From Alcaligenaceae bacterium (lineage in GTDB: Bacteria; Pseudomonadota; Gammaproteobacteria; Burkholderiales; Burkholderiaceae_B), in the NCBI GenBank assembly GCA_947378965.1, contig CANCMG010000040.1:1-36246 (forward strand): a stretch of 36,246 nt of DNA, written 5' to 3'. Position numbers and translations under genes: made by a program. Below, in pieces: positions 5,144 to 26,174 of this stretch. The first letter of the stretch is position 1; each line of letters begins with the position of its first letter. The notes below the pieces were generated by a model. The model saw only the letters and a program-made list of their open reading frames with translations, was not told where the DNA came from and did not search any database.

Positions 5144-5205
5144 GCAAACAGGAGAAACGTATGCTCACTGAGCACGTGACACAAAGTCATTATTTGCGAG
5201 GCGCT

Positions 5206-5976
5206 ATGAAAATCGTCAATCCTGCGCTTCGCAGGAGTTCGGGTGCGTTGTTGCTGTGCGCGCTGACACTATTAGCTGGCTGCGCCAACCAATCGGGCAA
5301 TCGCGCGCCAGTCACTGACCTAAACAGCGGGGGTACAGCAGTCGCCCGCACTTATGTCATCAAACCTGGCGACACCATTAACAAGATTGCCCGTGCAAAC
5401 GGTGTCGATGAAGCAACGATTTTGCGGCTTAACAAACTCGCGAATCCCAATCGGTTGATTGTGGGTCAGACGCTCAGGCTCTCTGAGGGTGCAGAGACTG
5501 CGGCCTTAGCCTCTCGGCCCTCTACCATGACTACGCCCGAGGCGCGTCCGGTTGATGCTTCAACAAGCAACTCGCAGGTCAGTGAAACCACTGCACCCGC
5601 TGCTGACGCTGGTTTGATTAGCTGGGGTTGGCCCGCGAACGGCAAAGTGATTCAAGGGTTTACTCAAGCGACCAAAGGGATCGATATTGCGGGTAACGCG
5701 GGTGACCCGATCGAAGCTGCTGCCAACGGCAAGGTGATGTACTCGGGTAATGGGGTACGCGGACTTGGCAATCTGATCATTGTGAACCATGACAATGGAT
5801 TTATTACTGCCTACGCACACAACCGAACCTTGTTGGTCAAAGCGGGACAAGAGGTAAAAAAGGGCGCAAAAATTGCTGAGATGGGCCAAACTGACGCTTC
5901 GTCTGTACGGCTGCATTTTGAAGTGCGGCGCCAGGGGACTCCAGTCGACCCTTTGCAGTATCTGCCCAGCCGCTAA
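5206..5976 (+). CDS. nlpD: NlpD-like murein hydrolase activator lipoprotein
   Basis: An envelope lipoprotein with a signal peptide MKIVNPALRRSSGALLLC... ending in the lipobox LAGC. A LysM domain follows (YVIKPGDTINKIARANGV to VGQTLRL), then a low-complexity linker, then a C-terminal LytM/M23 domain. The M23 metal ligands are degenerate (TKGIDIAG instead of HxGxD, AYAHN instead of HxH), as in E. coli NlpD, which activates amidase AmiC rather than cutting peptidoglycan itself. I chose ATG 5206 because it gives a normal-length signal peptide. ATG 5161 has a better Shine-Dalgarno (AGGAG) but adds 15 residues. rpoS does not follow, unlike the usual order. Confidence 0.93.
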   Translation: MKIVNPALRRSSGALLLCALTLLAGCANQSGNRAPVTDLNSGGTAVARTYVIKPGDTINKIARANGVDEATILRLNKLANPNRLIVGQTLRLSEGAETAALASRPSTMTTPEARPVDASTSNSQVSETTAPAADAGLISWGWPANGKVIQGFTQATKGIDIAGNAGDPIEAAANGKVMYSGNGVRGLGNLIIVNHDNGFITAYAHNRTLLVKAGQEVKKGAKIAEMGQTDASSVRLHFEVRRQGTPVDPLQYLPSR

Positions 5977-5987
5977 GAGTTTCTCGC

Positions 5988-6761
5988 ATGACACCGACAC
6001 TTGTGTTCGATCTTGAGACCATACCCGATATTGAAGGGCTTCGGCGCCTGCATCAGTGGGGCGCCGAGGTCTCAGATGCTGAGGTCGCTGAGCGGGCATT
6101 TGCTGCGCGTAAAGAGCTCACCGGCACAACCTTTTTACCGCACCACTTGCAGCGCGTGGCCGTGGTGGGTTGTGTGTTTCGCGATGACAAAGGGTTTAGA
6201 GTGCGTTGCTTGGGTCAGGCTGACGATGCCGAGCCTGTGTTGCTCAATAGTTTTTTTAAAACAATTGAACGCTACACCCCAAAGCTGATTAGCTGGAACG
6301 GCTCAGGTTTTGACTTGCCTGTGTTGCACTACCGAACCCTGATTCATGGCATTGCGGCACCGCGCTATTGGGACATGGGCGAAGACGATAAAGATTTTCG
6401 CTATAACAACTATTTAAGCCGCTATCACACGCGTCATGTTGATTTAATGGATGTCTTGGCCAAGTACAACGGCCGTGGCAATGCACCGCTTGATGACCTG
6501 GCAAAGCTTTGCGGCTTTCCCGGTAAATTAGGAATGGACGGCAGCCATGTGTGGGATGCCTGGTCAAACGGGCGTGCCAATGAGGTGCGTGCGTATTGCG
6601 AGACCGATGTGGTCAACACTTGGTTGGTCTACTGCCGTTTTCGCTTGATCCGCGGCGAACTCGATCAAACGGCATATCAGGCTGAAATTGACCTAGTGCG
6701 CAGTACCCTCCAAGCAAGCGCCGAGCCACACTGGGCAGAGTATTTGGCTGCTTGGTCATGA
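5988..6761 (+). CDS. 3'-5' exonuclease related to the PolB proofreading domain
   Basis: 257 residues matching the stand-alone exonuclease family resembling the proofreading domain of family B polymerases. ExoI is FDLETIPD near the N terminus (residues 6-13), an ExoII-like SWNGSGFDLPVL lies near residue 100, and a C-terminal YCETDVVNTWLVY supplies the ExoIII aspartate; together these give a DEDD-type metal site. There is no polymerase domain. The family is widespread in proteobacteria but its cellular role is poorly defined. It starts 11 bases after nlpD and overlaps the upstream part of the next reading frame, so it is probably in one operon with nlpD. Confidence 0.85.
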   Translation: MTPTLVFDLETIPDIEGLRRLHQWGAEVSDAEVAERAFAARKELTGTTFLPHHLQRVAVVGCVFRDDKGFRVRCLGQADDAEPVLLNSFFKTIERYTPKLISWNGSGFDLPVLHYRTLIHGIAAPRYWDMGEDDKDFRYNNYLSRYHTRHVDLMDVLAKYNGRGNAPLDDLAKLCGFPGKLGMDGSHVWDAWSNGRANEVRAYCETDVVNTWLVYCRFRLIRGELDQTAYQAEIDLVRSTLQASAEPHWAEYLAAWS

Positions 6762-6805
6762 CGAATAATTTTATGCGGATACCAACCGCCTCACGGAGCC
6801 CTCTG

Positions 6806-7477
6806 ATGCGTTGCTTTGATTTGCGATCTCTGTTGACCCTGCTTAGTTTGTTGCTGATTAGCTTTTGCGCGTCTGCGCAAAATGGCGCGTTGCTGTTGCG
6901 CTCATCGAATCAACTGAACCAAAGTAGTCAGCCTGCTGCTGCCTCGATGGCACCGACCGAGGCACCGAGCGCCTCGCCGTCGGCGGTTGAAAGTTTTGGC
7001 CGTTTGCCCGATTCGCTGATCGATGCCTTGGTGCTCGACGCTGCACAAAAGGCCAAGCTTGATGCTGCACACGAAGCGCGTCGTAAAATGTGGACCACCA
7101 ATCGTTTGGCCCGTCAGGCTGAATACGCAGCATTAACGCAAGAGCTGTCAACCGATAAGTTTGACCCTCGCGATGTCATTGCGTTACGCAAAAAAACTCG
7201 CGCCAAAATTGACGCAGGCTTTGACGAAGTGCAGGCAAGTTGGCTTACGTTTTGGGATGCGCTGAACGCTTCGCAGCGCAAGATACTGATTAGCTATATG
7301 CGCCAACAACACACAATCCAAGGAAAAGCCTCAGCGGCTGCCTCAGCCGAGCGCTCCGCTGCGCGTGCTAACCAACAAGCTGCGCTTGACCGCGCCGAAG
7401 CACGTGCTGCGGCTCAAGGTGGCTCAGCCTCTTCTGGTAATCCAGCACCAATGGGTGCTGTGACGACGCCAAAATAA
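6806..7477 (+). CDS. Exported DUF3106-like small helical protein
   Basis: 223 residues from ATG 6806, chosen because a CGGAG Shine-Dalgarno lies upstream and a clean signal peptide follows (hydrophobic run LLTLLSLLLISFCASAQ). The mature part has an Ala/Ser/Pro-rich stretch and then a charged helical region (about 80-180) with a WLTFWDALNASQRK segment, resembling periplasmic DUF3106 or Spy/CpxP-like proteins. The C-terminal tail is Ala-rich and probably disordered. Function is not known from sequence; a periplasmic chaperone-like or stress role is only a guess. An in-frame ATG at 6758 overlapping the exonuclease gene is less likely. Confidence 0.75.
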   Translation: MRCFDLRSLLTLLSLLLISFCASAQNGALLLRSSNQLNQSSQPAAASMAPTEAPSASPSAVESFGRLPDSLIDALVLDAAQKAKLDAAHEARRKMWTTNRLARQAEYAALTQELSTDKFDPRDVIALRKKTRAKIDAGFDEVQASWLTFWDALNASQRKILISYMRQQHTIQGKASAAASAERSAARANQQAALDRAEARAAAQGGSASSGNPAPMGAVTTPK

Positions 7478-8888: not shown

Positions 8889-10304
8889 TTATTTTGTTTG
8901 CGCCAAGATTTTTTCAGCAGCTTGGCGCACTCGAACAGGCGCTGTCCCGCCAATATGATCGCGCGCAGCGACCGAGCCTTCGAGTGTGAGCACCTCGTGC
9001 ACATCATCGCCAATCGAGGCATGAAACACGCGTAGTTCAGCCACACTTAAATCCGCCAGGTCGCAATTCTTTTTCTCGCACTCACGCACGGCATGCGCGA
9101 CCGCTTCGTGTGCATCACGAAACGCCACGCCACGCTTCACCAGGTAGTCGGCCAGATCTGTTGCCGTAGCAAACCCCTGCAAGGCCGCGGCACGCATCGC
9201 AGCGGGCTTGACTTGGATACCGGCGATCATGTCAGCAAAAATGGTGAGCGTATCGCGCACCGTATCCGCCGTATCAAACAAACCTTCTTTGTCTTCTTGA
9301 TTGTCTTTGTTGTAGGCTAGGGGCTGGCCTTTCATCAGCGTGAGTAAGCCCACCAAATTGCCATTGACGCGCCCCGTTTTGCCACGCGCAAGTTCGGGGA
9401 CATCGGGGTTCTTTTTTTGCGGCATGATCGAGCTGCCGGTGCAAAAGCGATCAGGCAAATCAATGAAACCTACTCGTGGGCTCATCCAGATGATGAGCTC
9501 TTCAGAGAGCCTTGAGATATGCGTCATGATCAGCGCGCAGGCGCTGCAAAACTCAATCGCAAAGTCGCGGTCAGAGACTGCGTCGAGTGAGTTTTGGCAG
9601 ACATCGTCAAAGCCCAAGAGCTGTGCGACCATGGGGCGATCAATCGGAAAACTCGTGCCAGCTAGGGCGGCCGCGCCCAAAGGCAGAATGTTGACGCGCT
9701 TGCGGCAGTCTTGAAGGCGACTGGCATCACGCCCAAACATCTCAGCGTAAGCCAGCAGGTGATGACCGAACGTGACTGGCTGAGCCACCTGCATGTGGGT
9801 AAAGCCTGGCAAAATCGTAGCGGCTTGTTGCAGTGCAACAGTGGCGAGCGCACGACGCAGCGCTTTCAGTAAATCGCCAAGCTGATCGATTTCATGGCGT
9901 AGCCACAAGCGAATATCGGTCGCGACCTGATCATTGCGCGAGCGCCCAGTATGCAGGCGTTTACCCGCGTCGCCTACGAGTTCAACCAGACGCTTTTCAA
10001 TATTGAGGTGTACATCTTCAAGATCAAGCAGCCAAGTGAACGTACCAGCCTGAATTTCGGTCAGGATCTGAGCCATGCCGCGTTCGATGTCGGCCAAATC
10101 TTGGGCAGTAATGACCTTGACGGCCGCCAGCATGGTGGCGTGGGCAAGCGAGCCCTGAATATCGACTAGGGCTAAGCGTTTATCAAAGTCGACCGAGGCG
10201 GTGTAGCGTTTGACGAGGTCAGAAACAGGCTCTGAAAAGCGGGCAGACCACGCTTCGGCTTTCTTATCAAACTGATTATGTGAGGTGTTGTGGGTGTTTT
10301 TCAT
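8889..10304 (-). CDS. argH: Argininosuccinate lyase
   Basis: Last step of arginine synthesis: splits argininosuccinate into arginine and fumarate. The fumarase/aspartase-superfamily signature [15 protein letters not shown] and the substrate-binding [13 protein letters not shown] are present. I chose ATG 10304 (MKNTHNTS), giving 471 residues, close to the family norm; the frame stays open to 10478 but that stretch belongs to the divergent spacer and the start of nadE. It is convergent with rlmD and divergent from nadE. Confidence 0.96.
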
Positions 10305-10386
10305 GGTGGTTCGATTATAGAGTGCTGCGCTGACCTCGCAGGCGTGCGATAATTTTCGGACAATAACTCGTATCGCCGGAATCTTC

Positions 10387-12042
10387 ATGTCTGCCGTCAA
10401 GGTCAGCATTGCACAAATTAATGCTTTAGTGGGTGACTTATCAGGAAATGCGCAACGGGTGCTCGAGGCTGCCCGCATCGCTCACGCCGCCGGCGCTCAG
10501 GTACTGTTAACCCCTGAACTCGTATTAACCGGGTATCCACCCGAAGATCTGTTGCTCAGGCCTTCATTTGTTGCCTCGTGTGATCAGGTGCTCAAAGACT
10601 TGTGCGCCAGTTTGGCCAGTTTGGCTGGGCTGCACGTCGTGGTGGGCCACGTGACCAGCCAAAATGGCCTACTGCGCAACGCGGCCTCGGTGTTGGTAGA
10701 CGGCAGCGTGTTAGGCACGTATTTCAAGCGCGAACTGCCCAATTACGCGGTGTTCGATGAACAACGCTACTTTGCGGCAGGCGTTCATCCCTTTACGTTC
10801 AGTGTGGGTGGCGTCTGTTTTGGCGTCAACATTTGCGAAGACATCTGGTTTGACGCGGCACCCGAGGCGGCCGCGCAGCAGGGCGCTCACACACTGTTGG
10901 TGCTCAATGCTTCGCCTTACAACCTTGGTAAATACGCTCAGCGCCTCGAGGTTGCGCGTCGTTGTGTGGGTCGTACTGGCTGCTCGCTGGTGTATGCCAA
11001 TTTGGTCGGCGGGCAAGACGAACTCACTTTTGACGGGGCTTCGTTTGCGATGGATGCCAGTGGCGCAGTGGTCAACCGACTACCTGAGTATGCAAGCGCA
11101 CTAAGTTTGATTGAGGCTTCGAGCGATAGCAGCATCGCCGCGTGTCAATCCACATCACCGGGGCTAGTGGCGCAAGCGTTAGCGCCCGAACTGAGCGTTG
11201 AAGCTCAAGTCTGGCAGGCACTGACCACCTGTTTGGCCGACTATGTCAAAAAGAACGGTTTTCGCACGGTCATACTTGGTTTATCAGGTGGCATTGACTC
11301 GGCCGTCGTGATGGCCATTGCAGTTGATGCTTTAGGTGCAGAAAACGTGCACGCTGTGATGATGCCCTCGCGTTACACCGCAGATATCTCGCAGATCGAT
11401 GCGCGCGACATGGTGAAGCGTTTAGGCGTCGGCTATGAAGAGATTGCGATCGCAGAGTTGGCCGCAAGCTTTGATCAGGTCTTGAGCCCAATGTTTGCAG
11501 GTAAGGCGTTAGACGCCACCGAAGAAAACATTCAGGCGCGCCTGCGCGGGATGTTGTTGATGGCCTTGTCTAACAAGTTCGGCCATCTCGTGCTGACAAC
11601 GGGCAACAAATCTGAACTTTCAACGGGGTATTGCACACTGTATGGCGATATGGCGGGCGGCTTTGCCGTACTTAAAGACGTTGCTAAAACCTTAGTCTAT
11701 CGTCTGGCGCGTTGGCGCAATATTCAGTCTGAGGTGATCCCAGAACGCATTATTACGCGCCCACCGTCGGCTGAGCTGCGTCCCGACCAAACTGATCAAG
11801 ATAATCTGCCCGAATATGACGTGATTGACGGTATTATTGAGCTGTATGTTGAGCAAAACCAGTCGGCAGCGCAGATTGTGGCAGCTGGTTTTGAGCGGGC
11901 GGCGGTTGAGCAAATCCTGCGGTTGATTCGTATCAACGAATACAAGCGCAAGCAAAGTCCACCCGGCCCGCGCATTACCAATCGGGCGTACGGGCGAGAT
12001 TGGCGTTATCCTTTGTCTAACGGTTTTCGTGAAACTCTTTAA
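10387..12042 (+). CDS. nadE: Glutamine-dependent NAD+ synthetase
   Basis: 551 residues in two domains. The N-terminal nitrilase-type glutaminase has its Glu in [10 protein letters not shown] (E44), its Lys in YFKRELPNY and its nucleophile Cys in NICEDIW. The C-terminal ATP-PPi synthetase has the P-loop LSGGIDSA near residue 300 and [12 protein letters not shown]. It converts deamido-NAD to NAD+, using ammonia released from glutamine. It lies 21 bases before the P-II gene, so NAD synthesis and nitrogen signalling are probably co-transcribed; that pairing is common in betaproteobacteria. Confidence 0.96.
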
Positions 12043-14539: not shown

Positions 14540-17500
14540 ATGCCTGAAGTGAAACTGACCCGGCGTCAGTTTTTTCAAGTCACTGGTGCCGGACTTGGCG
14601 CAAGCAGCATGACCGTAATGGGTCTTGCTCATGCCGCTGATCCCGTGTTTGCCAAGCCCAACAAACTTGAAAAAACAACAGAGACGCGTAGTACCTGTCC
14701 TTACTGTTCTGTGAGTTGTGGCGTGCTGATGTACAGCCGCAAAGACGCGAGCGGTAAGTTGAAGGTCATGCACGTCGAGGGCGATCCTGATAATCCAGTC
14801 AACAAGGGCACACTGTGCCCCAAGGGCGCTGGTATTCTCGACATGATCGAGAGCCCCAACCGTTTACAGTTTCCTGAAGTGCGTGAGCCCGGTACAAACG
14901 AGTGGAAGCGCATCTCTTGGGACGAAGCGTTGACGCGCATCACCAAGCGCATGAAGGCTGATCGCGATCAGAACTTTGTGCAAAAAAATGCTGCAGGCGT
15001 AACGGTGAATCGCTGGAACACTTTCGGTATGCTGGTGAGCTCGGCCTCAAATAACGAAGCCGGTTATCTCAGCGCCAAGGTCTTGCGTTCGCTCGGCGTT
15101 GTTGCACTCGATACACAAGCGCGTATTTGACACGCCCCGACGGTAGCCAGTCTGGCTCCGACGTTTGGGCGCGGTTCGATGACCAACCACTGGGTGGACA
15201 TCAAAAACGCTGACTTAGTATTGATTATGGGCGGTAACGCTGCTGAGGCACATCCTTGCGGCTTTAAGTGGGTGATTAAGGCCAAGGCTCAACGCGGCGC
15301 TAAGCTTGTTGTGGTTGATCCGCGCTTTACGCGCTCTGCGGCGGTGGCCGATTACTACGCGCCGATTCGGGTCGGTGCTGACATCGCCTTTTTGGGTGGT
15401 GTGATCAACTATTTGCTGGCAAACGACAAGATTCATCACGAGTACGTCAAGAACTACACTAACTCTGCCTTCTTGATTAACCCAGATTACGGGTTTAAAG
15501 ACGGCTTGTTTACGGGTTATGACGAAGCCAAACGCACGTACGCAAAGGGCACCTGGACGTACCAAATGGAAGATGGGTTTGCCAAGGTTGATCCAACCTT
15601 GCAAGATCCCAATTGCGTTTTTCAGTTAATGAAGAAGCATTACGCGCGTTATACGCCCGAGTTGGTGAGTAGCGTGACGGGTACGCCTCAAGACCAATTC
15701 TTGAAAGTCTGCGAGATGATCGCTGCAACCTCTGTCGGCAACAAGACCATGACGATCTTGTACGCGTTGGGCTGGACGCAACACTCGGTGGGCTCTGAAA
15801 ATATTCGCACCATGGCAATGATTCAGTTGCTATTGGGCAATATGGGTATGGCCGGCGGTGGCGTCAACGCTTTGCGTGGTCACGCCAACGTGCAGGGTAT
15901 TACTGACCAGTGCTTGTATTCAGAAGTGTTGCCTGGGTATTTGTCTTCACCCGCTGACGCAGATAAAACCTACGAGGAATACAAAGCTGCGCGCACGCCC
16001 AAGGCCTTGCGCCCTGGGCAGATGAATTTTCCGCAAAACTTTCCGAAATGGTTTAACAGCTTGATGAAAGCTTGGTATGGCGAACACGCCACCACCGAGA
16101 CGAATTTTGCTTACGATTACTTGCCTAAGCGTGATGCGCCTTACGACATCATGCAAATTTTTGACAATATGCATCATGGCAAGATGTCGGGCTTTATTTC
16201 TTCTGGCTTTAACCCGCTAGCGGCAATTGCCAACAAACACAAGATCAGTGCAGCGCTGTCTAAACTAAAGTATCTTGTGATTGTTGATCCGCTCTCGACC
16301 GAAACCAGTGAGTTCTGGAAAAACTACGGCGAATTTAATAACGTCGATGCAAGCAAAATCCAGACCGAAGTGTTTCGTTTGCCAGGTACCTGTTTTGCTG
16401 AGCAAGATGGTTCGTTCACCAATTCAAGTCGTGTGATTCAATGGCACTGGAAAGCGGCGGATGGCCCCGGCGAGTCAAAGTCGGATCAAGAGATAATGGC
16501 GGCCCTGTTTACGCGCCTGCGCGATATGTACAAGAAAGAGGGCGGTGCCTATCCAGATCCGATTTTGAATCTAACCTGGAACTACACCGATCCAATGAAC
16601 CCGGATGCGGGTGAAATCAACAAAGAAATTAGTGGTAAAGCTTTGGCTGATTTGAAAGACGCTGCCGGGACTGTGCTGGTGCCCGCCGGTGAACAGCTAG
16701 CTGGCTTTGCGCAACTGGTGGATAACGGCGGCACCTCTTGCGGGAACTGGATTTACTCTGGGATGTGGAACAAGGCCGGCAACTTGACCGCGCGCCGCGA
16801 TCCAACAGACGCCTCCGAAAACGGGATTGGTCAAAGCTTGAATTGGGGCTTTGCGTGGCCAGCCAATCGACGCATTTTGTATAACCGTGCGTCTGCGGAT
16901 ATGAATGGCAAGCCTTGGGATGAAACCCGTACTGTGCTGAAATGGATGGGCGACAGATGGGGCGGCAGCGATGTGCCCGATATGCGTCCTAACGCCAAGC
17001 CTGAAGAAAACGTGATGCCGTTTATCATGACACAAGAAGGCGTGGGTCGGTTGTTTGCACCTCAGATGGCAGAGGGGCCTTTCCCTGAGCACTACGAGCC
17101 GTTCGAGACGCCGCTAGGTCGCAACCCGATGCATCCTAACAACCCCAAGGCAACGTCGAACCCTGCGGCTCGTGTCTACAAGGGCGACATGGAAGTCTTT
17201 GGTACTCGGAAAGACTATCCGTTTGCCGCGACGACCTATCGTTTGGTTGAGCACTTTCACTATTGGTCAAAACACTCAGATTTGAACGCCATCGTGCAGC
17301 CAGAGATGTTTGTTGAGATTAGTCAAGAGTTGGCCAAGATGCGTGGTATCGCCTCAGGCGATCGCGTGAAGGTGAGCTCTGCTCGCGGACACGTGCATGC
17401 GAAAGCGATGGTGACGATGCGCCTAAAAGGCATGAAGGTCGATGGCCAGACGATTTATCACGTTGGCATACCGATTCACTTCGGCTTTAAAGGCTTGACT

Positions 17501-17602
17501 AAACCGGCACAACTTGCGAACTCGCTGACGCCCTACGTGGCCGATGCAAACTCTCAGACGCCAGAGTTCAAGGCGTTCTTGGTCAACATTGAGAAAGCAT
17601 AA
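14540..17602 (+). CDS. fdnG: Formate dehydrogenase-N alpha subunit, selenocysteine-containing
   Basis: One 1020-residue molybdopterin enzyme read through an in-frame TGA at 15128-15130 (Sec197, in ARI-U-HAPTVAS). Two open frames, 14540-15130 and the one reopening downstream, are the two parts of the same gene. A Tat signal with the twin-arginine TRRQFF starts the protein (R8, R9), so it is exported folded. The [4Fe-4S] ligands are STCPYCSVSCGV plus TLCPKG. It oxidises formate to CO2 at the periplasmic face and passes electrons to FdnH. E. coli FdnG is about 1015 residues with Sec196, a near-exact match. The Shine-Dalgarno AAGGAG precedes the ATG. FdnG and FdoG cannot be told apart here. Confidence 0.96.
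15128..15169 (+). promoter_or_regulatory. SECIS element for Sec197 of fdnG
   Basis: Directly after the UGA, CGG (15141-15143) and AGCC (15145-15148) pair with GGCT (15154-15157) and CCG (15158-15160), leaving a single bulged U at 15144 and a five-base loop AGUCU. CCC (15136-15138) can pair with GGG (15167-15169) below. The bulged U and the GU in the loop are the features SelB needs in E. coli fdhF and fdnG SECIS elements. Confidence 0.92.
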
Positions 17603-17613
17603 GGGGATACGAC

Positions 17614-18495
17614 ATGGCAACTCAAGCACTTCACGTCGTCGCCCAGTCTGCTACGACCATGACTCCACCCGCTGCGGCGGCCAAAACAGTTCATGTCGCC
17701 AAGCTGATCGATATTTCGAGCTGCATTGGCTGCAAGGCCTGTCAGGTCGCTTGTATGGAATGGAATGAAACCCGTCCAGCTGTCGGTGATACCGATGGCA
17801 CGTATAACAATCCGGTTGAGCTCGGTGCGAATGCCTGGACGGTGATGAAATTTAACGAGGTCGAAAATGCCCAAGGCGGGATTGACTGGTTGATTCGCAA
17901 AGACGGCTGTATGCATTGCGAGGATCCAGGCTGCCTGAAGGCTTGTCCGAGCCCTGGTGCTATTGTCAAGCTTGACAATGGCATTGTGGATTTCAACTCG
18001 GACAAATGTATTGGTTGCGGCTATTGCGTGGCAGGGTGCCCGTTCGATGTGCCAAAGATTTCGCAAACGACTAACAAGGCCACCAAGTGCACCTTGTGTT
18101 CGGATCGCGTATCAGTGGGACAAGAACCGGCCTGCGTGAAAGCCTGTCCAACTCAAGCTTTGACCTTTGGCCCGAAAGATGACCGGATCAAATACGCCAA
18201 TGAACGGATCAAAGACTTGAACGGTCGCGGCTATGACAAGGCCTCTTTGTATAACCCGCAAGGTGTGGGGGGCACGCACGTGATGTATGTGCTGCCGCAT
18301 GGCGACAAGCCAACGGCTTATAACGGCTTGCCAGCTGATCCAAAGATCTCGTCAACGGTTGGGCTCTGGAAAGGCATCATGAAACCGATTGCACTGTTGA
18401 CCATGGCGGCAACCGTGTTTGCTGGCGTGATTCACTACGCGATCAAGGGTCCGGATACGGTCGATGAAGATCATGATGACTCGAAAAAGTCTTAA
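17614..18495 (+). CDS. fdnH: Formate dehydrogenase-N beta (iron-sulfur) subunit
   Basis: 293 residues, matching E. coli FdnH. Four ferredoxin-type cysteine groups are visible: CIGCKACQVAC, CMHCEDPGCLKAC, CIGCGYCVAGC and CTLCSDRV...CVKAC, each for one [4Fe-4S] cluster, forming the wire from FdnG to the cytochrome. A single C-terminal membrane helix (about residues 250-272, ending HYAIKG) anchors it. It starts 11 bases after fdnG with an AGGGG Shine-Dalgarno and precedes fdnI by 11 bases: a tight operon. Confidence 0.96.
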   Translation: MATQALHVVAQSATTMTPPAAAAKTVHVAKLIDISSCIGCKACQVACMEWNETRPAVGDTDGTYNNPVELGANAWTVMKFNEVENAQGGIDWLIRKDGCMHCEDPGCLKACPSPGAIVKLDNGIVDFNSDKCIGCGYCVAGCPFDVPKISQTTNKATKCTLCSDRVSVGQEPACVKACPTQALTFGPKDDRIKYANERIKDLNGRGYDKASLYNPQGVGGTHVMYVLPHGDKPTAYNGLPADPKISSTVGLWKGIMKPIALLTMAATVFAGVIHYAIKGPDTVDEDHDDSKKS

Positions 18496-18506
18496 GGAGA
18501 TGAACC

Positions 18507-19136
18507 ATGTCTAATCAAGAAGAAGGATTAGTTCGGTACAAAAGCTCAGATCGCTTGAATCATTGGTTGATTGCCGCGTTATTTGTCTTGGCGGCACTTG
18601 GCGGCTTGGCGATGTTTCATCCGTCAATGTTCTTTTTGTCTGGCTTGTTTGGCGGCGGTTCATGGACCAGGATCTTGCATCCGTTTATCGGTTCGGCCAT
18701 GTTTGTGTTGTTTGTGCTGATTTTTTTCAAATTTTGGCATCACAACGTACTCACGGCCAATGACCGCAAGTGGCTGGGCCAGATCGGCGACGTATTAAAC
18801 AAAAAACACGATCGCTTACCTGAAGTGGGTCGTTATAACGGCGGGCAAAAAGCTGCTTTCTGGGTGATGGTCTTGACCATGATCTTGTTGGTGGTGTCAG
18901 GCTTGGCGTTTTGGCGGCCTTACTTCTCACATTACTTTTCAGTCGACGTGACGCGTGTGGCGGCCTTAGTGCACGCGGTGTCGGCCTGGGTCTTGATCTT
19001 GACGATCATCACCCATGTCTATGCAGCGCTGTGGGTCAAGGGCACGATTGGTGCAATGTGGACAGGTGTCGTGAGTCGCGCCTGGGCACGCAAGCATCAT
19101 CCAGGTTGGTTTAAAGAAGTGACCGGCGGCAAATAA
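18507..19136 (+). CDS. fdnI: Formate dehydrogenase-N gamma subunit (cytochrome b556)
   Basis: 209 residues with four hydrophobic helices, the FdnI/cytochrome b561-like fold. Histidines placed in helices (LNHWLIAA, LHPFIG, LVHAVSAWVL, ITHVYAAL) are candidates for the two b-type heme ligands and the quinone site. It takes electrons from FdnH and reduces menaquinone or ubiquinone in the inner membrane. A strong AAGGAGATG Shine-Dalgarno precedes the ATG. Confidence 0.95.
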   Translation: MSNQEEGLVRYKSSDRLNHWLIAALFVLAALGGLAMFHPSMFFLSGLFGGGSWTRILHPFIGSAMFVLFVLIFFKFWHHNVLTANDRKWLGQIGDVLNKKHDRLPEVGRYNGGQKAAFWVMVLTMILLVVSGLAFWRPYFSHYFSVDVTRVAALVHAVSAWVLILTIITHVYAALWVKGTIGAMWTGVVSRAWARKHHPGWFKEVTGGK

Positions 19137-19165
19137 CGCGTTTGGTTGTTTGTTACGCAGTTCAT

Positions 19166-19256
19166 ACAAGGGGAAGACAGGTATGCTTCCCCTTGTGCGT
19201 TTAGCGAAGCGTTCGCGCTTCACACGCTGCATCGTAAAACGTCCCGACTTGTCGGG
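19166..19256 (+). other. Three consecutive RNA hairpins between fdnI and fdhE
   Basis: Hairpin 1: ACAAGGGGAAG (19166-19176) pairs perfectly with CTTCCCCTTGT (19186-19196), 11 bp with a 9-base loop. Hairpin 2: GAAGCG-TTCG-CGCTTC (19206-19221), a 6-bp stem with a stable UUCG tetraloop. Hairpin 3: CCCGA-CTTG-TCGGG (19243-19256). None is followed by a T-tract, so a simple intrinsic terminator is unlikely. mRNA stabilisation, processing or differential expression of fdnGHI versus fdhE is plausible. Confidence 0.8.
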
Positions 19257-19290
19257 CGGGTCAGGCAGCACGGATACTTGAGATAGCAAC

Positions 19291-20232
19291 ATGAGCGTGA
19301 AAGCAGTCAAACTAATACAGCCTGGCGAAATTCAGGGCATGCCCGATGATGACACCCCCTTACTGGTGGTGGTCGATGCCGCTGAGATGTTTCGTGCGCG
19401 TGCCGAGCGTATGCAGGTGTTGGCAGATCAACAAAGTGATTCGCCTTGGTTGGCGTTTTGTGCACAGTTGATGCAGGCTCAGGGCGATTGCCTGGGCATT
19501 GTGCAGCCACAGGCGCTTGACGAAACCGTAGTGCGCGAGTCGTTGATTCATAAATTGCCGCCGTTTTCAATTACGACTTGGTTACCCGAGGCGCAGTGGT
19601 CAGTCGTGTTCAACGCCCTGAGCGAGGCCCTTGAGGCGATGCCTCTGGCGCCTGGTGTGCGTGGTGCGCTTGAGCGTGTCAAACAGACTGCGGTGGTGGA
19701 TCAGATCCGTCAGGCCAAGGCCTTGTTGGCCGCCGATGACTCAGCGTTGCCTGCCGACGCCGTGCCGTTTATTGGCGCAGCTTTGCAGCTGCTGTGGGCT
19801 ACCCAGTCAAAAACGCTGTCTGCGTTTGTCGAGTTACACAAAGGCGAAAGCGGTCTGTGCCCAGTCTGCGGTTCGCATCCCGTGGCCAGTGTTGTTCGCG
19901 TGGGCGAACGTGATTTGCATCGTTACTTGATTTGCTCGTTGTGTGCCTCAGAGTGGTATGCGCCGCGCGCACGCTGCACAAATTGCGAGACCCCAAAAGA
20001 GGTCTCAATGCTCGGCGACACGCGCGACAGTGCCTTGCAGGGTGAGTGTTGCGAAGAGTGTCGTGGCTATCTGAAATTGATGTTTCAAGCGAAAGAGCCT
20101 CTGATCGATGCGGTGGCTGACGACCTCGCATCCATTAGCCTAGATCTAGCGCTCTCTGCCGAGGGATTTTTTCGCACGGGGCGCAATTTATTTTTTACTG
20201 TTGGTCAGCCCAACAATACAGTGGATGCGTGA
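19291..20232 (+). CDS. fdhE: Formate dehydrogenase accessory protein FdhE
   Basis: 313 residues, the usual FdhE length. The C-terminal half has the rubredoxin-like CxxC pairs CPVCGSHP, CSLCASEW, CTNCETPK and CCEECRGY that bind iron. FdhE is a cytoplasmic factor needed for respiratory formate dehydrogenase maturation and interacts with the catalytic subunit before Tat export. It follows fdnI after a 154-base hairpin-rich spacer and precedes selA. FdhD, the sulfurtransferase partner, is not in this window. Confidence 0.95.
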   Translation: MSVKAVKLIQPGEIQGMPDDDTPLLVVVDAAEMFRARAERMQVLADQQSDSPWLAFCAQLMQAQGDCLGIVQPQALDETVVRESLIHKLPPFSITTWLPEAQWSVVFNALSEALEAMPLAPGVRGALERVKQTAVVDQIRQAKALLAADDSALPADAVPFIGAALQLLWATQSKTLSAFVELHKGESGLCPVCGSHPVASVVRVGERDLHRYLICSLCASEWYAPRARCTNCETPKEVSMLGDTRDSALQGECCEECRGYLKLMFQAKEPLIDAVADDLASISLDLALSAEGFFRTGRNLFFTVGQPNNTVDA

Positions 20233-20275
20233 GCGATATTTAACGAGTCGTCAGCGCCACTCAAGCAAGTTATTA

Positions 20276-20344
20276 TTTTCGATTTTTACAGCGATCCAAC
20301 AAACAAAACGTTTTCGATTTTCATAGCGGCTCAAACAACGGTCA
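20276..20344. repeat. About 34-bp imperfect direct repeat, two units
   Basis: Units at 20276-20310 and 20311-20344 both begin with TTTTCGATTTT and share an AGCG plus CAAAC/CAACAAAC-rich tail. Weaker related sequence may extend on both sides. The repeat fills the fdhE-selA spacer, which holds no gene. Confidence 0.55.
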
Positions 20345-20383
20345 TTTTTAGATTCTCACTATCACTCAGGTATTCAAACCTTC

Positions 20384-21835
20384 ATGAACAAACTACCCGT
20401 GGCGCGTGCGCCCGTGTCTGAATGGCTCGCACAGTTACCTTCGGTCGACAAGCTCGTTTCACACGAGCGCTCGCAAGACTGGCTAGTTCAATATGGTCGC
20501 GATGAAGTGTTGCGCGTCATTCGCTTAACCCTGTCGTTGGTACGCCAAGAGTGCCTTGAAAACAAACGCTCGATTCAACCTGATTTAGATGATTTGCTTA
20601 AGCAGGTTGCGCAAACGCTCAGTACCCGCGCAACACCTAACCTGCGTCGCGTCATCAATTTAACGGGCACGGTACTGCATACCAATCTTGGGCGGGCTGT
20701 CATGCCCCCTGAAGTCATTGAAGCCATGTCTAGCGCCGCGGCTGAGCCGTGCGCTCTCGAGTACGACTTGGGCGAGGGCAAACGCGGCGACCGCGACGAA
20801 CTCGTTGAAGAGCTGTTGTGTGAACTGACGGGTGCTGAGGCTGCGACCGTGGTGAACAACAACGCGGCTGCCGTATTTTTGTTGCTACACGCCTTATCAA
20901 ACCGCAAAGAAACCATCGTGTCGCGCGGCGAACTGATTGAAATCGGTGGCTCGTTCAGAATCCCTGACATCATGAAACGCGCAGGTGCCAAACTCACCGA
21001 GGTGGGTACCACCAACCGTACTCATCCAAAAGATTTTTCTGAGGCGATCAACGCTAAAACAGCCCTGCTGATGAAAGTGCACACCAGTAACTATATGGTG
21101 CAGGGCTTTACCGCTGAAGTACCAGAAGCCGAGCTGGCGCGCATCGCCCACGAGCGTCAGTTGCCCTTTGTGGTCGACTTGGGTTCAGGCACGCTGCTCG
21201 ACTTGTCTCGCTATGGCTTACCCTCAGAGCCGACCCCTAGGCAAGCGATTGAGGCGGGTGCCGACCTAGTGACCTTCAGTTGTGACAAGTTGCTTGGTGG
21301 GCCGCAGGCGGGCATTGTGGTCGGACGCCGTGACTTGATCCAAAAGATTAAAAAAAATCCACTCAAGCGTGTCTTGCGGGTAGGCAAGGTTACGCTTGCA
21401 GGCCTTGAGGCGGTGTTGAGACTGTATCGCAACCCAGACACCTTGCCGCAACGCTTATCGGTGTTGCAACTGCTGACGCGACCCGAGAGTGACATGCAAA
21501 CGCAAGCTCTGCGTTTGATACCGCAATTACAAGAGGCGTTGACGATCTGCGGGCTGACGTGTCGTACGCAGTCTGTGAAGTCACAGATTGGCTCAGGGTC
21601 GCTGCCGGTTGAGCGCTTGCCCTCAGTGGCGTTGGCGATCGAGTCTACGAACAAGGCTGGTGAAAAGAAGGTCGTACGTCTTGAGCGCCTGTTACGCGCC
21701 TCAGCGACTGCCGTGATTGGCCGTTTGTCGGATAAAACCTTACTGTTAGATCTGCGGTGCCTCACCCCAGAAAAAGAACAGGTTTTGGTCGAGCATGTGT
21801 TAAGTGCAGCAGCAAATTTAGTGACTGTGCGCTGA
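20384..21835 (+). CDS. selA: L-seryl-tRNA(Sec) selenium transferase SelA
   Basis: 483 residues, slightly longer than E. coli SelA (463). A PLP-dependent enzyme that converts Ser-tRNA(Sec) to Sec-tRNA(Sec) with selenophosphate, working as a large ring. The Schiff-base lysine is K302 in TFSCDKLLGGPQAG. Other family segments are INLTGTVLHTNLGRA and ATVVNNNAAAVFL. It lies between fdhE and selB, so the selenium machinery is encoded beside its visible client fdnG. SelD, which makes selenophosphate, must be encoded elsewhere. Confidence 0.97.
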   Translation: MNKLPVARAPVSEWLAQLPSVDKLVSHERSQDWLVQYGRDEVLRVIRLTLSLVRQECLENKRSIQPDLDDLLKQVAQTLSTRATPNLRRVINLTGTVLHTNLGRAVMPPEVIEAMSSAAAEPCALEYDLGEGKRGDRDELVEELLCELTGAEAATVVNNNAAAVFLLLHALSNRKETIVSRGELIEIGGSFRIPDIMKRAGAKLTEVGTTNRTHPKDFSEAINAKTALLMKVHTSNYMVQGFTAEVPEAELARIAHERQLPFVVDLGSGTLLDLSRYGLPSEPTPRQAIEAGADLVTFSCDKLLGGPQAGIVVGRRDLIQKIKKNPLKRVLRVGKVTLAGLEAVLRLYRNPDTLPQRLSVLQLLTRPESDMQTQALRLIPQLQEALTICGLTCRTQSVKSQIGSGSLPVERLPSVALAIESTNKAGEKKVVRLERLLRASATAVIGRLSDKTLLLDLRCLTPEKEQVLVEHVLSAAANLVTVR

Positions 21836-21840
21836 AGCTC

Positions 21841-21957
21841 GTGATTACCAAACCTCAGTCCTCGCAGGCCAGTCAGCTGAAGGTTGTGTTGCTGATCAGT
21901 GCAACGGGAAACGCCAGCTTGCATGACTTAGAGATCGCTGCGGGACTGACGCAATGA
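21841..21957 (+). CDS. Possible 38-residue ORF coupled to selB
   Basis: A GTG-started frame fills the selA-selB spacer and ends in a TGA overlapping the selB ATG as ATGA. The predicted peptide has a hydrophobic stretch LKVVLLISATGNASLHDLE. No family is recognised and the ribosome site is weak. It could be a coupling peptide or chance; the frame also runs open back into selA. Confidence 0.2.
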   Translation: MITKPQSSQASQLKVVLLISATGNASLHDLEIAAGLTQ

Positions 21958-23900
21958 TCATCGGCACCGCGGGCCACATCGATCATGGCAAAACTTCGCT
22001 GGTCAAGGCTTTGACGGGTGTGGATGCCGATCGACTGCCTGAAGAACAAGCGCGCGGCATGACAATTGATCTGGGCTTTGCGTATGTGCCTAACGAGGCC
22101 GCTGAGATCATCGGGTTTGTCGATGTGCCTGGTCACGAGAAATTTGTGCATACGATGGCGGCGGGTGCGGTGGGGATGGATCATGGCCTGCTGGTCGTGG
22201 CTGCCGATGATGGCATCATGCCGCAGACGCGCGAGCATTTAAGAATTTTAGATTTGTTGGGGGTGGCCGGTCTGACCGTGGCGATCACCAAAGCGGATAT
22301 GGTCGAGGACGCTCGCGCGCAACAGGTGCGTGACGAGGTCGCGCGCTACGTTGAGCAAACGCGGTTTGGGCACGTCGACAGTTACGTGGTGTCGGCCCGT
22401 GACGGACAGGGCCTGCCAGAGCTTAAACAGGCCTTGTTCGCGCTTGCAGTTGAACAGCCGCTCGAGCGCGCTCACTATTTTCGTTTGGCGATTGATCGCG
22501 TGTTCGTCGTCAAAGGCCTTGGGGTGGCCGTGACGGGGGCCGTCATTGCCGGTCAAGTGCGGGTAGGCGACACCTTGACGTTGGCGCACGCAGCGCTTGA
22601 GGTGCGGGTCAGATCGATTCATGCGCAAAATCAAAATGCTGAGTTCGCTGGCGTCGGGCAACGCTGCGGTTTGGTGCTGACCGGCGTCGAGCTTGCTGAC
22701 GTGCAGCGTGGTGATTGGTTGTTGGCGCCGCAGTTTAATCGCCAGACCTCGCGCATCGATTGTTTGCTAAGCGTGCCAAGCGACGGCGAGCGTTCGCTCA
22801 AAGACGGCGAACGAGTGCTGTTGCATCACGGCTGTGAGCACGTTGCCGCGCGTTTGATTTTATTAGAGGCAAACGAGCTGTTGCCGGGCCAAACCGGGTT
22901 TGCGCAATGTGTGCTTGACCGCACACTGCCTTTTTGTTGGCATGACCGATTAGTGCTGCGCGATGGCAGCGCGCGCGTCACACTTGCAGGTGCGCAGGTA
23001 TTAGATATCGCGCCGCCCGTGCGTGCGCGTAAAACGCCTGAACGTCTCGATACCTTGCGTGTCTTGTGTCAGGCGTCGGCTGCGGAGGTGCTTGGTACGT
23101 TGTTACATACCTCGCTCGTGCCGATCGCGCTCGAACACTGGGCGCTTGCCATGAATCGCGATCCCCGCCACCTCGCAGAAAGTTTAGATGAGCCCATCGC
23201 AGTGACGCTTAAAGTCGCTCAGGTTGAGCTGGTGCTTGGAGTACGCGCGCATACAACTCTGACTGAGCGCTTGCGTAGCAGTCTGTCGGCGTTTCATGTT
23301 GCAGAGCCAGATGAGCCAGGTGTGGCGCTTGAACGCCTGAGGCGTATGGCCTTGCCGTTTCTAGAGGCTTCAGTGTTTAAAGCCTGGGCGCAATACCAAG
23401 TTGATACCGGTGCAATCACCCTGAGCGGTAGCTTTGCGCATCTGCCCGAGCATCGAGTGACCTTAAGCGCGGCCGAACAAATCCTTTGGCAAAAAATCTT
23501 ACCGAAGATGCTCGAACCAGGGTTTGATGCACCTTGGGTGCGCGACCTAGCCTTGAGTGTTGCCGCCAACGAAGACAGTGTGCGCACCTTACTCAAAAAA
23601 CAAGCGCGTACCTCGCTGGTTGTGCAGGTGATCAAAGATTTGTTTTATCCTCACGCAACCATGGTGGCGTTAGCCGACCTGTTGCGTGGGTTGCTAGAGC
23701 TTCATGGCGCTGTGAGTGTTGTGCAGTTTCGCGATGCCACGGTGCTGGGGCGCAAGCGTGCAATTCAAGTGCTTGAGGCGTTTGATCGAATTGGTTTAAC
23801 CCGCCGCGTTGTCGCAAACGCACGCCAAAGTCGCAGTGTTGAGAAAGATCACCGGATTGTGCGTAACGCAGGGCTATTTGTAGAAGTCGGTTCAGACTAA
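21954..23900 (+). CDS. selB: Selenocysteine-specific elongation factor SelB
   Basis: 648 residues, a little longer than E. coli SelB (614). The EF-Tu-like GTPase shows G1 GHIDHGKT (residues 7-14), DVPGHE (57-62) and TKAD. Beta-barrel domains follow, and a C-terminal winged-helix region (last 250 residues or so) binds the SECIS. SelB delivers Sec-tRNA(Sec) to UGA codons followed by a SECIS, such as the one in fdnG. Its ATG overlaps the stop of a small frame. selC follows 26 bases after its stop. Confidence 0.97.
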
Positions 23901-23926
23901 CCAAATCTGATAAAGTGCAGTTCTAA

Positions 23927-24023
23927 GGAAGAGTCACGCTCTCGGGTGGGACGTCCGGACTTCAAATCCGGGAGGGGCTGTCGTACAGTCCTTGGTGGGT
24001 TCGACTCCCATACTCTTTCGCCA
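23927..24023 (+). tRNA. selC: tRNA-Sec (anticodon TCA)
   Basis: A 97-base tRNA with features unique to selenocysteine tRNA: an 8-bp acceptor stem (GGAAGAGT with ACTCTTTC, one G-U pair), anticodon TCA at 23962-23964 in the loop CTTCAAA, a long variable arm with a paired GGGGCTGT/ACAGTCCTT core, a T arm with GGTTCGACTCC, and an encoded CCA (24021-24023). It closely resembles E. coli selC. It sits between selB and the next gene with 26- and 23-base gaps, so it is probably cut out of a longer transcript. Confidence 0.97.
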
Positions 24024-24046
24024 AATTTTGAAAGGGCGCCAAACGC

Positions 24047-24511
24047 GTGGCTGAGATTCGTGGGTGTGAGTTTCCGGATGACCTGATGTATGACGACGAA
24101 CTCAATGTTTGGTTTCGTGACTCGGGTGGCGGCCAATTTGAGGCGGGTTTAACGGCCTTTGGCTTGGCGCTGGTAGGCGACCTGTACATGTTTAATCCCC
24201 GTCCGGTTGGGCGCGAGATCGAGGCGAATAAAGCCTTTGCCTTAGTAGAGGTCGCAAAAACAGTCTTATCCGTGCGTACACCTTTTGCCTGTGTCGTTGC
24301 CGAAATCAATACGCCACTAGAGACGACTCCCTTCAAGGTGAATCGAAGCCCCTACATGAACTGGCTGGTGCGCCTTGAGCCCGACGATTCAACACAAGCG
24401 CGTAGCGTCTTGCTCAGCGGTACCGAGGTCGCCGTGCGTGCAAACGAGCTGATGGATTTGCATGGGATGACTTCGTTGGAAGAATTCAAGCGCCCGCTGG
24501 GTTCGTCATGA
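24047..24511 (+). CDS. GcvH-like lipoyl-carrier protein
   Basis: 154 residues aligning over most of its length with glycine-cleavage H protein: a hammerhead-fold lipoyl domain with ALVEVAKTVLSVRTPF where GcvH has VAESVKAASDIYAP, so K71 is the expected lipoyl lysine; INTPLETTP and NRSPYMNWLV match the distal GcvH segments. It is clearly divergent from true GcvH, and gcvT/gcvP are not adjacent. Stand-alone GcvH-like proteins (LbpA) carry sulfur in the sHdr pathway together with DsrE-type proteins. The start is a GTG 23 bases after the tRNA-Sec CCA. Its 3' end overlaps the DsrE gene by 4 bases. A sulfur or selenium carrier role is inferred only. Confidence 0.75.
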   Translation: MAEIRGCEFPDDLMYDDELNVWFRDSGGGQFEAGLTAFGLALVGDLYMFNPRPVGREIEANKAFALVEVAKTVLSVRTPFACVVAEINTPLETTPFKVNRSPYMNWLVRLEPDDSTQARSVLLSGTEVAVRANELMDLHGMTSLEEFKRPLGSS

Positions 24512-24882
24512 CCTCGCTAGTGCTGCAATTGTGGCAAACCAGTGCAGCCGCGCCACAGTTGGCGGCAACACCTTTCATGTGGGCGGCTTCGGCTGCGGCC
24601 ATGGATTGGCCGGTTGAGATTCATGCCTTGGGTGCCAGTGTCGAATTATTTGTACGCGATAACGCTGCCAGGCATCAGGTGGTTGCACCGTTAAATCGCC
24701 CGTTGTCGGCCTATATCGAAGACGCCACACGTTCGGGCGTCAAGGTCTTCCTGTGCAGCACCGCCATGCGCGATCGCGGCTTGGTACCTGAAGACATGCT
24801 CGAGGAATGCCAAAGCGTGCTTGGGATGGTTACGATGCTCGAGCGTGTCGCGCAGCCCGACACGACCGTGCTGACGTATTAG
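24508..24882 (+). CDS. DsrE-family protein
   Basis: 124 residues with the DsrE/DsrF/TusD-like fold pattern: an N-terminal strand SLVLQLWQ, a helix-rich ATPFMWAASAAAMDWPVEIHALG, and GVKVFLCSTAMRDRGL, which places Cys83 at the active-site position of the family; Cys101 is a second cysteine. DsrE-family members relay persulfide sulfur, and a DsrE-like domain also occurs in the selenium-associated protein YedF. The ATG overlaps the stop of the GcvH-like gene (ATGA), implying coupled translation and a joint role. The last 53 bases overlap the ubiC 3' end on the opposite strand. The exact function is unknown. Confidence 0.75.
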   Translation: MTSLVLQLWQTSAAAPQLAATPFMWAASAAAMDWPVEIHALGASVELFVRDNAARHQVVAPLNRPLSAYIEDATRSGVKVFLCSTAMRDRGLVPEDMLEECQSVLGMVTMLERVAQPDTTVLTY

Positions 24883-25426
24883 CCTCTTGAGCGATTGGCC
24901 AAAACGTTGGCAAGAAAGCTTCGGCGACCAGCAAAGGCTGGCCTGCACGCGTAAAGACTGAACGGCGGGCCATGACAGTCAGGCCTGCTGATGAACTTGT
25001 CTGACAGAGCCGGTATAACGGCATACCAAGCTGCAAGATCTTGAATTCGAATTCAGAGCGCACGATCGCTCGGTCGTGATACAAAATGTCGGCTAGTGGG
25101 CGGTTACGAAGGCGTCTGAGCGCCTGCCAGTGACCTCGCGTTGCAGCGAGAGGGGCAACGCTACGGGCCATCACGCAATCGATTCCTAAGATCGACATGC
25201 ATACCTCGCGCTGCCAGACCGCATCCCCCGGGCGCAGGCCTAGCCTGGCCGCCTCATCGCGATTGGCGCGGCAGACGTTTTCAGAGAGCACGCGCAACGC
25301 TAACGGACCTAGCTGGCGTAACCCCTGCGTCAGAGCGCCTGCTCGGGTCAGCCATCGGCGTTGCAGCCCTAACACACGTGGCGCAGGTCTCGCGAGCCAG
25401 CCCTTTAGACCTCTATTTTTCTGCAT
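24830..25426 (-). CDS. ubiC: Chorismate pyruvate-lyase UbiC
   Basis: 198 residues from ATG 25426. The enzyme releases 4-hydroxybenzoate from chorismate, the first step of ubiquinone synthesis. Recognisable segments are WLTRAGALTQGLRQLG, VWQREVCM, GHWQALRRLRNRPLADILY and the C-terminal AEAFLPTFWP. About 20 extra residues follow that motif and overlap the DsrE gene on the other strand. The frame stays open to 25462, but that would run into the rluF start; ATG 25426 avoids this. Its start is 19 bases from that of rluF, so the two genes diverge from a tiny shared spacer. Confidence 0.88.
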   Translation of the reverse strand: MQKNRGLKGWLARPAPRVLGLQRRWLTRAGALTQGLRQLGPLALRVLSENVCRANRDEAARLGLRPGDAVWQREVCMSILGIDCVMARSVAPLAATRGHWQALRRLRNRPLADILYHDRAIVRSEFEFKILQLGMPLYRLCQTSSSAGLTVMARRSVFTRAGQPLLVAEAFLPTFWPIAQEANTSARSCRAARHARAS

Positions 25427-25445
25427 AGTTGTATTATCGCAAGTT

Positions 25446-26174
25446 ATGGAAAAAGTACGCATTTCAAAACTGATGGCTGAACGCGGCCTGTGCTCGCGCC
25501 GCGAAGCCGATAGCTATATCGAGCGGGGTTGGGTCAAAGTCGACGGTGTGGTGGTGACCTTGGGCGAGCGCGCTTTGCCGACGCAAAACATTACGCTTGA
25601 ACGTTCTGCCGCGGTTCAGCAAACCTCGCGTGTCACGATCTTAATCAACAAGCCGATGGGTTACGTGTCGGGGCAGGCTGAAGATGGCTACACGCCTGCC
25701 GTGGCGCTGATTGGGCCGCAAAGCCGTGCCTTGTCAGACCGCAGTCCTCAACGGTTTGAACGTTCTCAGTTGCGTGGGTTAGCCGTTGCCGGGCGTTTGG
25801 ATATTGATTCAACGGGTCTGCTTGTGATGACTCAGGATGGGCGCGTAGCCCGTCAGTTGATTGGTGACGATACCGAGATCGATAAAGAGTATCTCGTGCG
25901 TGTGCAAGGGCGCCTCGCACCCGGTAAGCTCGAACTGCTGAACGAAGGTCTTTCACTTGACGGTAAAAAACTGAAGCGCGCCCAGGTGCGTTGGCAAAAT
26001 GACGATCAGTTGCAATTTATTTTGAACGAAGGCAAAAAACGCCAGATTCGCCGAATGTGCGAAATGGTCGGTTTAAAAGTGCTGGGGCTCAAGCGTGTAC
26101 GCATTGGTCAGGTTCGCCTGGCCGATTTGCCCGTCGGCCAATGGCGTTATCTGCGAGCCGACGAGCAGTTTTAG
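25446..26174 (+). CDS. rluF: 23S rRNA pseudouridine synthase, RluF-like
   Basis: 242 residues: an N-terminal S4 RNA-binding domain (residues 1-60, RISKLMAERGLCSRREADSYI) and an RsuA/RluB/E/F catalytic domain with the essential Asp119 in GRLDIDSTGLL. Late motifs are KEYLVRV and GKKRQIRRMCEMVG. The family converts specific uridines in 23S rRNA to pseudouridine; E. coli RluF acts on U2604 and also tRNA-Tyr. Assignment to RluF rather than RluB rests on overall similarity. The last bases overlap the rlmJ stop codon by 4 bases on the opposite strand. Confidence 0.85.
   Translation: MEKVRISKLMAERGLCSRREADSYIERGWVKVDGVVVTLGERALPTQNITLERSAAVQQTSRVTILINKPMGYVSGQAEDGYTPAVALIGPQSRALSDRSPQRFERSQLRGLAVAGRLDIDSTGLLVMTQDGRVARQLIGDDTEIDKEYLVRVQGRLAPGKLELLNEGLSLDGKKLKRAQVRWQNDDQLQFILNEGKKRQIRRMCEMVGLKVLGLKRVRIGQVRLADLPVGQWRYLRADEQF

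Follow-up and report, generated by a model that had tools for sequence, protein, structure and literature searches.

The sHdr systems of sulfur oxidation encode LbpA, a GcvH-fold carrier with a conserved lysine, beside a DsrE-fold protein. LbpA has two conserved cysteines, one N-terminal and one C-terminal (excerpt of PMC6067878), and the E. coli machinery leaves it unmodified (excerpts of PMC6067878 and PMC10332631); for its modification sHdr has a dedicated ligase of the sLpl(AB) type. In formate dehydrogenase (FDH) maturation, YedF/FdhU, which joins a SirA-like to a DsrE-like domain, is reported to take part in biogenesis of the selenium-dependent FDH of Campylobacter (excerpt of PMC5322559). 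FdhD, the sulfurtransferase of FDHs, sulfurates the bis-MGD cofactor in E. coli and also binds it, and some organisms that express FDH are without fdhD, according to the same review (excerpt of PMC10609526).

The locus described here resembles sHdr in coding for a GcvH-fold carrier and a neighbouring DsrE-fold protein, but it is a selenocysteine (Sec)-FDH locus and these genes do not lie beside shdr genes. Its DsrE-fold protein is, like YedF/FdhU, tied to selenium and FDH; unlike YedF/FdhU it consists of a single DsrE domain, no SirA/TusA domain being found in it, and has a lipoyl-type carrier as partner. With FdhD the pair shares a proposed role but not a protein family: neither small protein matched the FdhD domain (PF02634) in Pfam, and the pair shows no domain for bis-MGD. 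Among the papers listed by searches of the open-licence PMC literature, no title or opening part of an abstract names such a pair together with selenocysteine or FDH.

The locus and its two small proteins

The window, by which we mean the whole 36,246-nucleotide stretch of DNA analysed, carries these features:

14540..17602, + strand: fdnG, FDH-N alpha; TIGR01553 match spanning one in-frame TGA, limits from ORF end and translation
15110-15139, + strand: fdnG active-site motif DTQARI-Sec-HAP, from the translation
15128-15130, + strand: in-frame TGA of fdnG, inside that motif; the ORF stops there and the motif is seen in homologues
17614..18495, + strand: fdnH, FDH-N beta; TIGR01582, 420.6 bits (cut-off 334.7)
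18507..19136, + strand: fdnI, FDH-N gamma; TIGR01583, 188.2 bits (cut-off 115.85)
19291..20232, + strand: fdhE; TIGR01562, 208.7 bits (cut-off 187.65)
20384..21835, + strand: selA; TIGR00474, 590.3 bits (cut-off 267.9)
21954..23900, + strand: selB; TIGR00475, 455 bits (cut-off 242.25)
23927..24023, + strand: selC, tRNA-Sec, anticodon TCA; ARAGORN
24047..24511, + strand: gcvHL, GcvH-like lipoyl-carrier protein, 154 aa; GTG start, Pfam GCV_H
24508..24882, + strand: dsrEL, DsrE-fold protein, 124 aa; ATG overlaps the gcvHL stop, Pfam DsrE

The order given in the original prediction, fdnGHI-fdhE-selA-selB-selC followed by a GcvH-like and DsrE-like pair, was borne out by open reading frames, profiles and ARAGORN. 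The 23-base gap between the end of tRNA-Sec (24023) and the gcvHL GTG (24047) was likewise confirmed, and the overlap of the two small genes proved to be 4 bases, from the dsrEL ATG at 24508 to the gcvHL end at 24511. The pair is flanked in the window by SelB, tRNA-Sec and a chorismate-lyase-like gene; this last (24830-25462, - strand) and dsrEL share 53 bases at the 3' end of the latter. Within the window the pair is not beside gcvT or gcvP, the neighbours over 14540-25462 being FDH, FdhE, Sel and chorismate-lyase-like genes, and a profile scan showed no Hdr-like neighbour there. SelD is encoded in the same genome.

The gcvHL product scores 73.2 bits with Pfam GCV_H (cut-off 22.2) and falls under both NCBIfam GcvH cut-offs (69.9 vs 117, and 58.6 vs 115.85); a regular GcvH encoded elsewhere in the genome reaches 122.6 bits. 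A third, partial GCV_H match (G000:C115:12730-12873; 22.8 vs 22.2 bits) lies near a contig end. The dsrEL product scores 38 bits with Pfam DsrE (PF02635; cut-off 22.7), matches only DsrE-type Pfam models and has no NCBIfam match. Modelling both structures, as had been proposed, yielded an H-protein fold and a DsrE fold. In the AlphaFold model of GcvHL (pLDDT 92.4), whose best PDB matches are H-proteins (1onl, 3ab9), K71 sits in the hairpin turn between strands 63-69 and 72-77. That of DsrEL (pLDDT 95.4) has Foldseek matches to the DsrE-family proteins 3mc3, 2qs7, 1jx7 and DsrEFH and places Cys83 at the end of the central strand, 79-83; a conserved cysteine at this position is what we take to be the active site of the DsrE family.

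K71, put forward as the modifiable lysine, is kept in 39/39 GcvH-like proteins of linked pairs (the partial gcvHL of L044 was left out of the counts), and Cys83, the candidate relay cysteine, in 37/37 linked DsrE-like proteins (L036 and L040, at contig ends, left out). In alignments of 22 diverse rows, E68, K71, P79 and W106 of GcvHL and Cys83 of DsrEL are invariant, with linked GcvHLs from 26 to 93% identical to that of the window. Two other cysteines were considered and rejected: Cys7 of GcvHL as a universal relay site, since only 22 of 39 linked homologues carry this N-terminal residue, and Cys101 of DsrEL as a conserved site, since it is not conserved.

Comparison with glycine cleavage and sHdr proteins

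GcvHL shares its fold and lysine position with GcvH of the glycine cleavage system and differs from it in its sub-cut-off NCBIfam scores and in its place in the GcvHL tree, where the 14 canonical GcvH rows form one side of a branch with support 99. These differences, together with the genome having a GcvH of its own, led us to reject glycine-cleavage paralogue identity. A branch with support 94 likewise separates the sHdr LbpA proteins from the rest; a single clade of linked GcvHLs was neither shown nor rejected (p-AU 0.51). In the DsrEL tree a branch with support 87 sets the linked DsrELs apart from sHdr and unpaired DsrEs, and an unpaired "MADKL" type makes a group of its own with weak support (76). 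Near-copies and SOLO L177 were left out of both trees.

The analogy drawn with LbpA plus DsrE was apt, in that sHdr-type loci of two genomes hold homologous GcvH-like and DsrE proteins: the one in G045 includes a CCG-domain gene and the one in G049 has DsrE_2, GCV_H, lipoate-ligase and GGR-like genes. Further DsrE/GcvH-like genes, in G320 and G606:C82, were assigned to the sHdr type by sequence. Such homology would also suit an orphan sHdr module, or a glycine-cleavage paralogue, carried along in the operon without a role in it. We consider this very unlikely. The sHdr LbpA has a C-terminal cysteine, and the linked GcvHLs do not (none in the tails of 20 distant rows; any cysteine after position 130 in 1/39 linked GcvHLs vs 5/5 sHdr rows). 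The lysine motif is E-S/T-G-K-W in sHdr LbpA vs mostly E-x-A/S-K-T in linked GcvHLs. No sLpl-type ligase was found in the genome of the window, its one LplA/B catalytic-domain gene being LipB, the sole lipoyl ligase or transferase found. Finally, K71 and Cys83 have been kept despite the wide divergence of the GcvHLs.

Distribution in the genus and the order

Among the 61 relatives searched, gcvHL homologues of at least 52% identity occur in 18 of 32 same-genus genomes, the window's own included, and dsrEL matches (E<=1e-12) in the same 18. In the rest of the family 1 of 236 genomes matched, weakly (G269); it too has a linked pair, and lies outside the order sample described below. tRNA-Sec adjoins gcvHL in 17/17 other genus loci which, with the constancy of K71 (39/39) and Cys83 (37/37), makes the pair more than a chance arrangement. 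Among the 14 loci from a scan of genome contigs is that of Polynucleobacter sp. MWH-Loch1C5 (L046), with the order fdnGHI-fdhE-selA-selB-selC-gcvHL-dsrEL-selD-mobA-like.

FDH-N alpha is found in 16 of the 32 genus genomes and the pair in 15 of those 16; in the sixteenth, G019, no pair was found and the contig stops inside selA. For three pair genomes, G011, G024 and G006, there was no FDH-N alpha match. G011 does have fdnH, fdnI and fdhE. In G006 no FDH-N was found; selA and most of selB are on one contig, and the end of selB, selC and the pair on another. Since on the first contig ggt is followed by a 57-residue fdhE remnant (L103:7617-7993) and then by selA-selB, fdnGHI is missing there, and the pair and sel genes were apparently kept after its loss; the gap could be a real deletion or an assembly fault.

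An 11.8-kb contig of the window's genome, L091 (G000:C122:1-11768), encodes a second, divergent SelB (about 38% identity), and no selC or selA was recognised on it. Close by are an ORF whose UGSC-family match is sub-cut-off and a protein of 346 aa without Pfam or NCBIfam match; the coordinates noted for this locus are 4969-6903 and 9158-10534. Several same-genus genomes have loci like it, and one of the genus, G018 (83% complete), has only this selB type and not the pair.

An evenly drawn sample of 399 genomes of the order was searched with the A1 profile of DsrE (E<=1e-8), which includes unpaired types; 78 genomes matched, 42 of them without FDH-N. At least 21 of the 399, from 11 families, have a linked GcvH-like/DsrE-like pair beside FDH or sel genes, the pair counts being lower bounds because surroundings were read for part of the DsrE matches in the 78 genomes. 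The pair lies 3' of selC in 17 of the 21, at a distance of 1.3 kb in G296 and 2.8 kb in G642. In G432, G523 and G606 it is 3' of fdhE; the sequence read there contains no sel gene, and in the first two a PepSY-type gene separates fdhE from the pair. In G510 the pair is split. The recognised neighbours at the other linked loci are FDH and sel genes. Some pair loci also have Mo/W-related neighbours: TupA-like (below cut-off) and ABC genes in G523, ModA in G346, a MobA-like gene in Polynucleobacter and a MOSC gene in G479. A MOSC-domain gene lies between selA and selB at one pair locus (L237:12910-13386).

This recurrence in many families beside one branch of Sec-FDHs leads us to conclude that the pair is quite probably a dedicated chalcogen-relay helper of Sec-FDH biogenesis.

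Relation to selenocysteine and to the FdnG lineage

FDH-N alpha is present in 90 of the 399 order genomes: 73 with an in-frame TGA, 16 Cys-only and 1 undetermined (G608, left out of the Sec/Cys count). Linked pairs occur in 21 of the 73 Sec-type and 0 of the 16 Cys-only genomes (P 0.01, rows not being independent). A co-occurrence test with sel genes, set beforehand, found Sec-type FDH-N in 21/21 order pair genomes; part of this agreement is by construction, since pairs were recognised by their FDH or sel neighbourhood.

These associations would fit a relay for selenium, in which Cys83 of DsrEL would carry a perselenide and the dithiol arm of GcvHL would release selenide to SelD, with no free selenide. 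The restriction to Sec-type FDH-N favours it, as does position: the pair comes directly after selC in 18/18 genus loci and 3' of it in most order genomes, and selD is the next gene in Polynucleobacter. Its case is strengthened by G006, which keeps selA-selB, selC and the pair with fdnGHI and most of fdhE missing, and by the part reported for YedF/FdhU in Campylobacter (excerpt of PMC5322559). Set against these are the 52 of 73 Sec-FDH genomes in which no linked pair is present, the three genomes (G432, G523, G606) where the pair stands by fdhE and the sequence read contains no sel gene, and the absence of the pair from G018. We regard selenium delivery as possible.

In the FdnG tree (FastTree, 87 rows, Sec region left out) one branch has every one of the 26 pair-genome rows on the same side, and the pair label changes 3 times. 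The motif DTQARI-Sec-HAP is present in 21 of these 26 rows vs 2 of the 61 others, most other Sec FdnG rows reading DNQARV-Sec-HGP. The pair therefore follows a particular form of FdnG, not selenocysteine at large. The predicted link to selenocysteine survived the tests set for it, so far as they could be run, but the pair keeps more closely to an FDH sub-lineage, most Sec-FDH genomes being without it. Locus reading and tree covered the FDH-N genomes other than these 12: G136, G551, G221, G407, G592, G507, G054, G448, G412, G040, G355 and G608.

The residues flanking Sec are not the same in the pair lineage as elsewhere, which is consistent with a redox helper: until newly made FdnG is exported, the lipoyl dithiol and DsrE would maintain its Sec selenol, or another of its thiols, in the reduced state. 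So is the twin-arginine-like TRRQFF stretch at the start of FdnG, given that both small proteins are, by eye, without signal sequence. DsrE-fold proteins with a conserved cysteine at the place of Cys83 are, however, known as sulfur carriers. DsrE3A is an example (excerpt of PMC4175335). Nor, in a casual reading of the loci, was a reductase gene noticed beside the pairs, and we think this role unlikely.

FdhD and the pair

FdhD was not found in the window's genome (96% complete) and was not above cut-off in 14 of the 18 pair genomes of the genus, G030 having a sub-cut-off match. Seven genomes of the genus have an FdhD, in each case immediately after an fdsA-like gene (domains checked in one). 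Reading of FDH-N loci showed fdhD in 22 of them and the pair in 0/22 of these; in the FdnG tree a branch with support 94 divides the 22/22 rows with fdhD in the locus from the 26/26 pair-genome rows. In the pair-side half, the loci read are without fdhD and many genomes, the window's included, are without FdhD. This exclusion is one lineage split, with 3 changes of the pair label, and we dropped it as repeated evidence because the tree offers only 3 independent contrasts. The reading upstream of fdnG covered under 1 kb at several pair loci.

In the order sample, FdhD is found in 38/38 and A1-profile DsrE in 0/38 of FdnG lineage I, in 1/15 and 12/15 of lineage II, and in 13/22 and 19/22 of lineage III (lineages II and III together, 14/37 and 31/37). 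Both are absent from 3 of the 90 FDH-N genomes (G444, G492, G630). The 17 FdhD-less FDH-N genomes in which no linked pair was seen include four where the locus was cut or unfetched (G356, G399, G582, G608). Fourteen of these 17, which are of lineage II (e.g. L205, L213, L216), have an A1-profile DsrE elsewhere; the 7/7 DsrEs read there, in G049, G311, G313, G458, G487, G573 and G608, are of the unpaired MADKL type.

FdhD is nevertheless present in 14 of the 21 order pair genomes, and the pair occurs at similar rates in FdhD-less (7/24) and FdhD-bearing (14/66) FDH-N genomes (P 0.57). A clean genome-wide replacement of FdhD by the pair was rejected, since the pair rate is independent of FdhD. 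The place of FdhD was read in 9 of the 14 (G348, G372, G443, G446 and G640 left out), and in 9/9 it does not adjoin the FDH locus. Upstream of 11 FdhD genes, from 9 of the 14, there is fdsA-like sequence in 2 cases, a MoaA-type ORF in 5 and neither in 4, and so FdhD in pair genomes is not confined to Fds. The MoaA-type ORFs, in G606, G432, G523, G296 and G644, are presumably MoaA, judging by the C-terminus.

Proposed function

Our preferred reading, held tentatively since its mechanism is deduced, is that the pair is a cytoplasmic relay for Mo/W sulfuration serving one sub-lineage of Sec FDH-N. DsrEL would take up sulfane sulfur as a persulfide on Cys83 and hand it on to GcvHL, whose dihydrolipoyl arm would sit on K71; before FdnG is exported, GcvHL would supply its Mo/W-bis-MGD centre with sulfur and reducing power, and would there perform or support the sulfuration step that FdhD carries out in E. 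coli. A carrier that also bears reductant fits the finding that sulfide together with a reductant allowed FDH sulfuration in vitro (excerpt of PMC12140954). We also count in favour of this reading the wide linkage, the want of FdhD in the window's genome, the FdnG lineage split with its altered motif, the Mo/W-related neighbours at some loci, and the existence of FDH-expressing organisms without fdhD (excerpt of PMC10609526).

Mo/W sulfuration has against it the FdhD counts of the order sample, the 17 FdhD-less FDH-N genomes in which no linked pair was seen, the A1-profile DsrE matches in 42 genomes without FDH-N, and an exclusion that amounts to one lineage split. Two further observations stand against it: only Sec-type FDHs go with the pair, and G006 has the pair with selA-selB-selC in the absence of FDH-N. 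With the position after selC and the adjoining selD of Polynucleobacter, they make the selenium reading nearly as good. The two are inseparable here, because FdhD is present in two thirds of the order pair genomes and because the pair of G006 was apparently kept after fdnGHI had been lost.

Significance

A broader possibility, which we put forward as rather doubtful, is that FdnG lineages II and III are FdhD-independent, DsrE proteins, accompanied in lineage III by a lipoyl-type carrier, having taken over sulfuration of the Mo/W cofactor. Were this so, lipoate would serve as an arm for metal-cofactor assembly, a use of which we know of no other case. How FDHs mature in organisms without fdhD, the caveat raised for FdhD (excerpt of PMC10609526), becomes testable, as does the hand-over of selenium or sulfur in the assembly of Sec enzymes. 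If the proposed role of the pair is right, lipoyl carriers would have a further use beyond 2-oxoacid and glycine metabolism and sulfur oxidation, and the pair may be a maturation factor for FDHs of interest in CO2 reduction.
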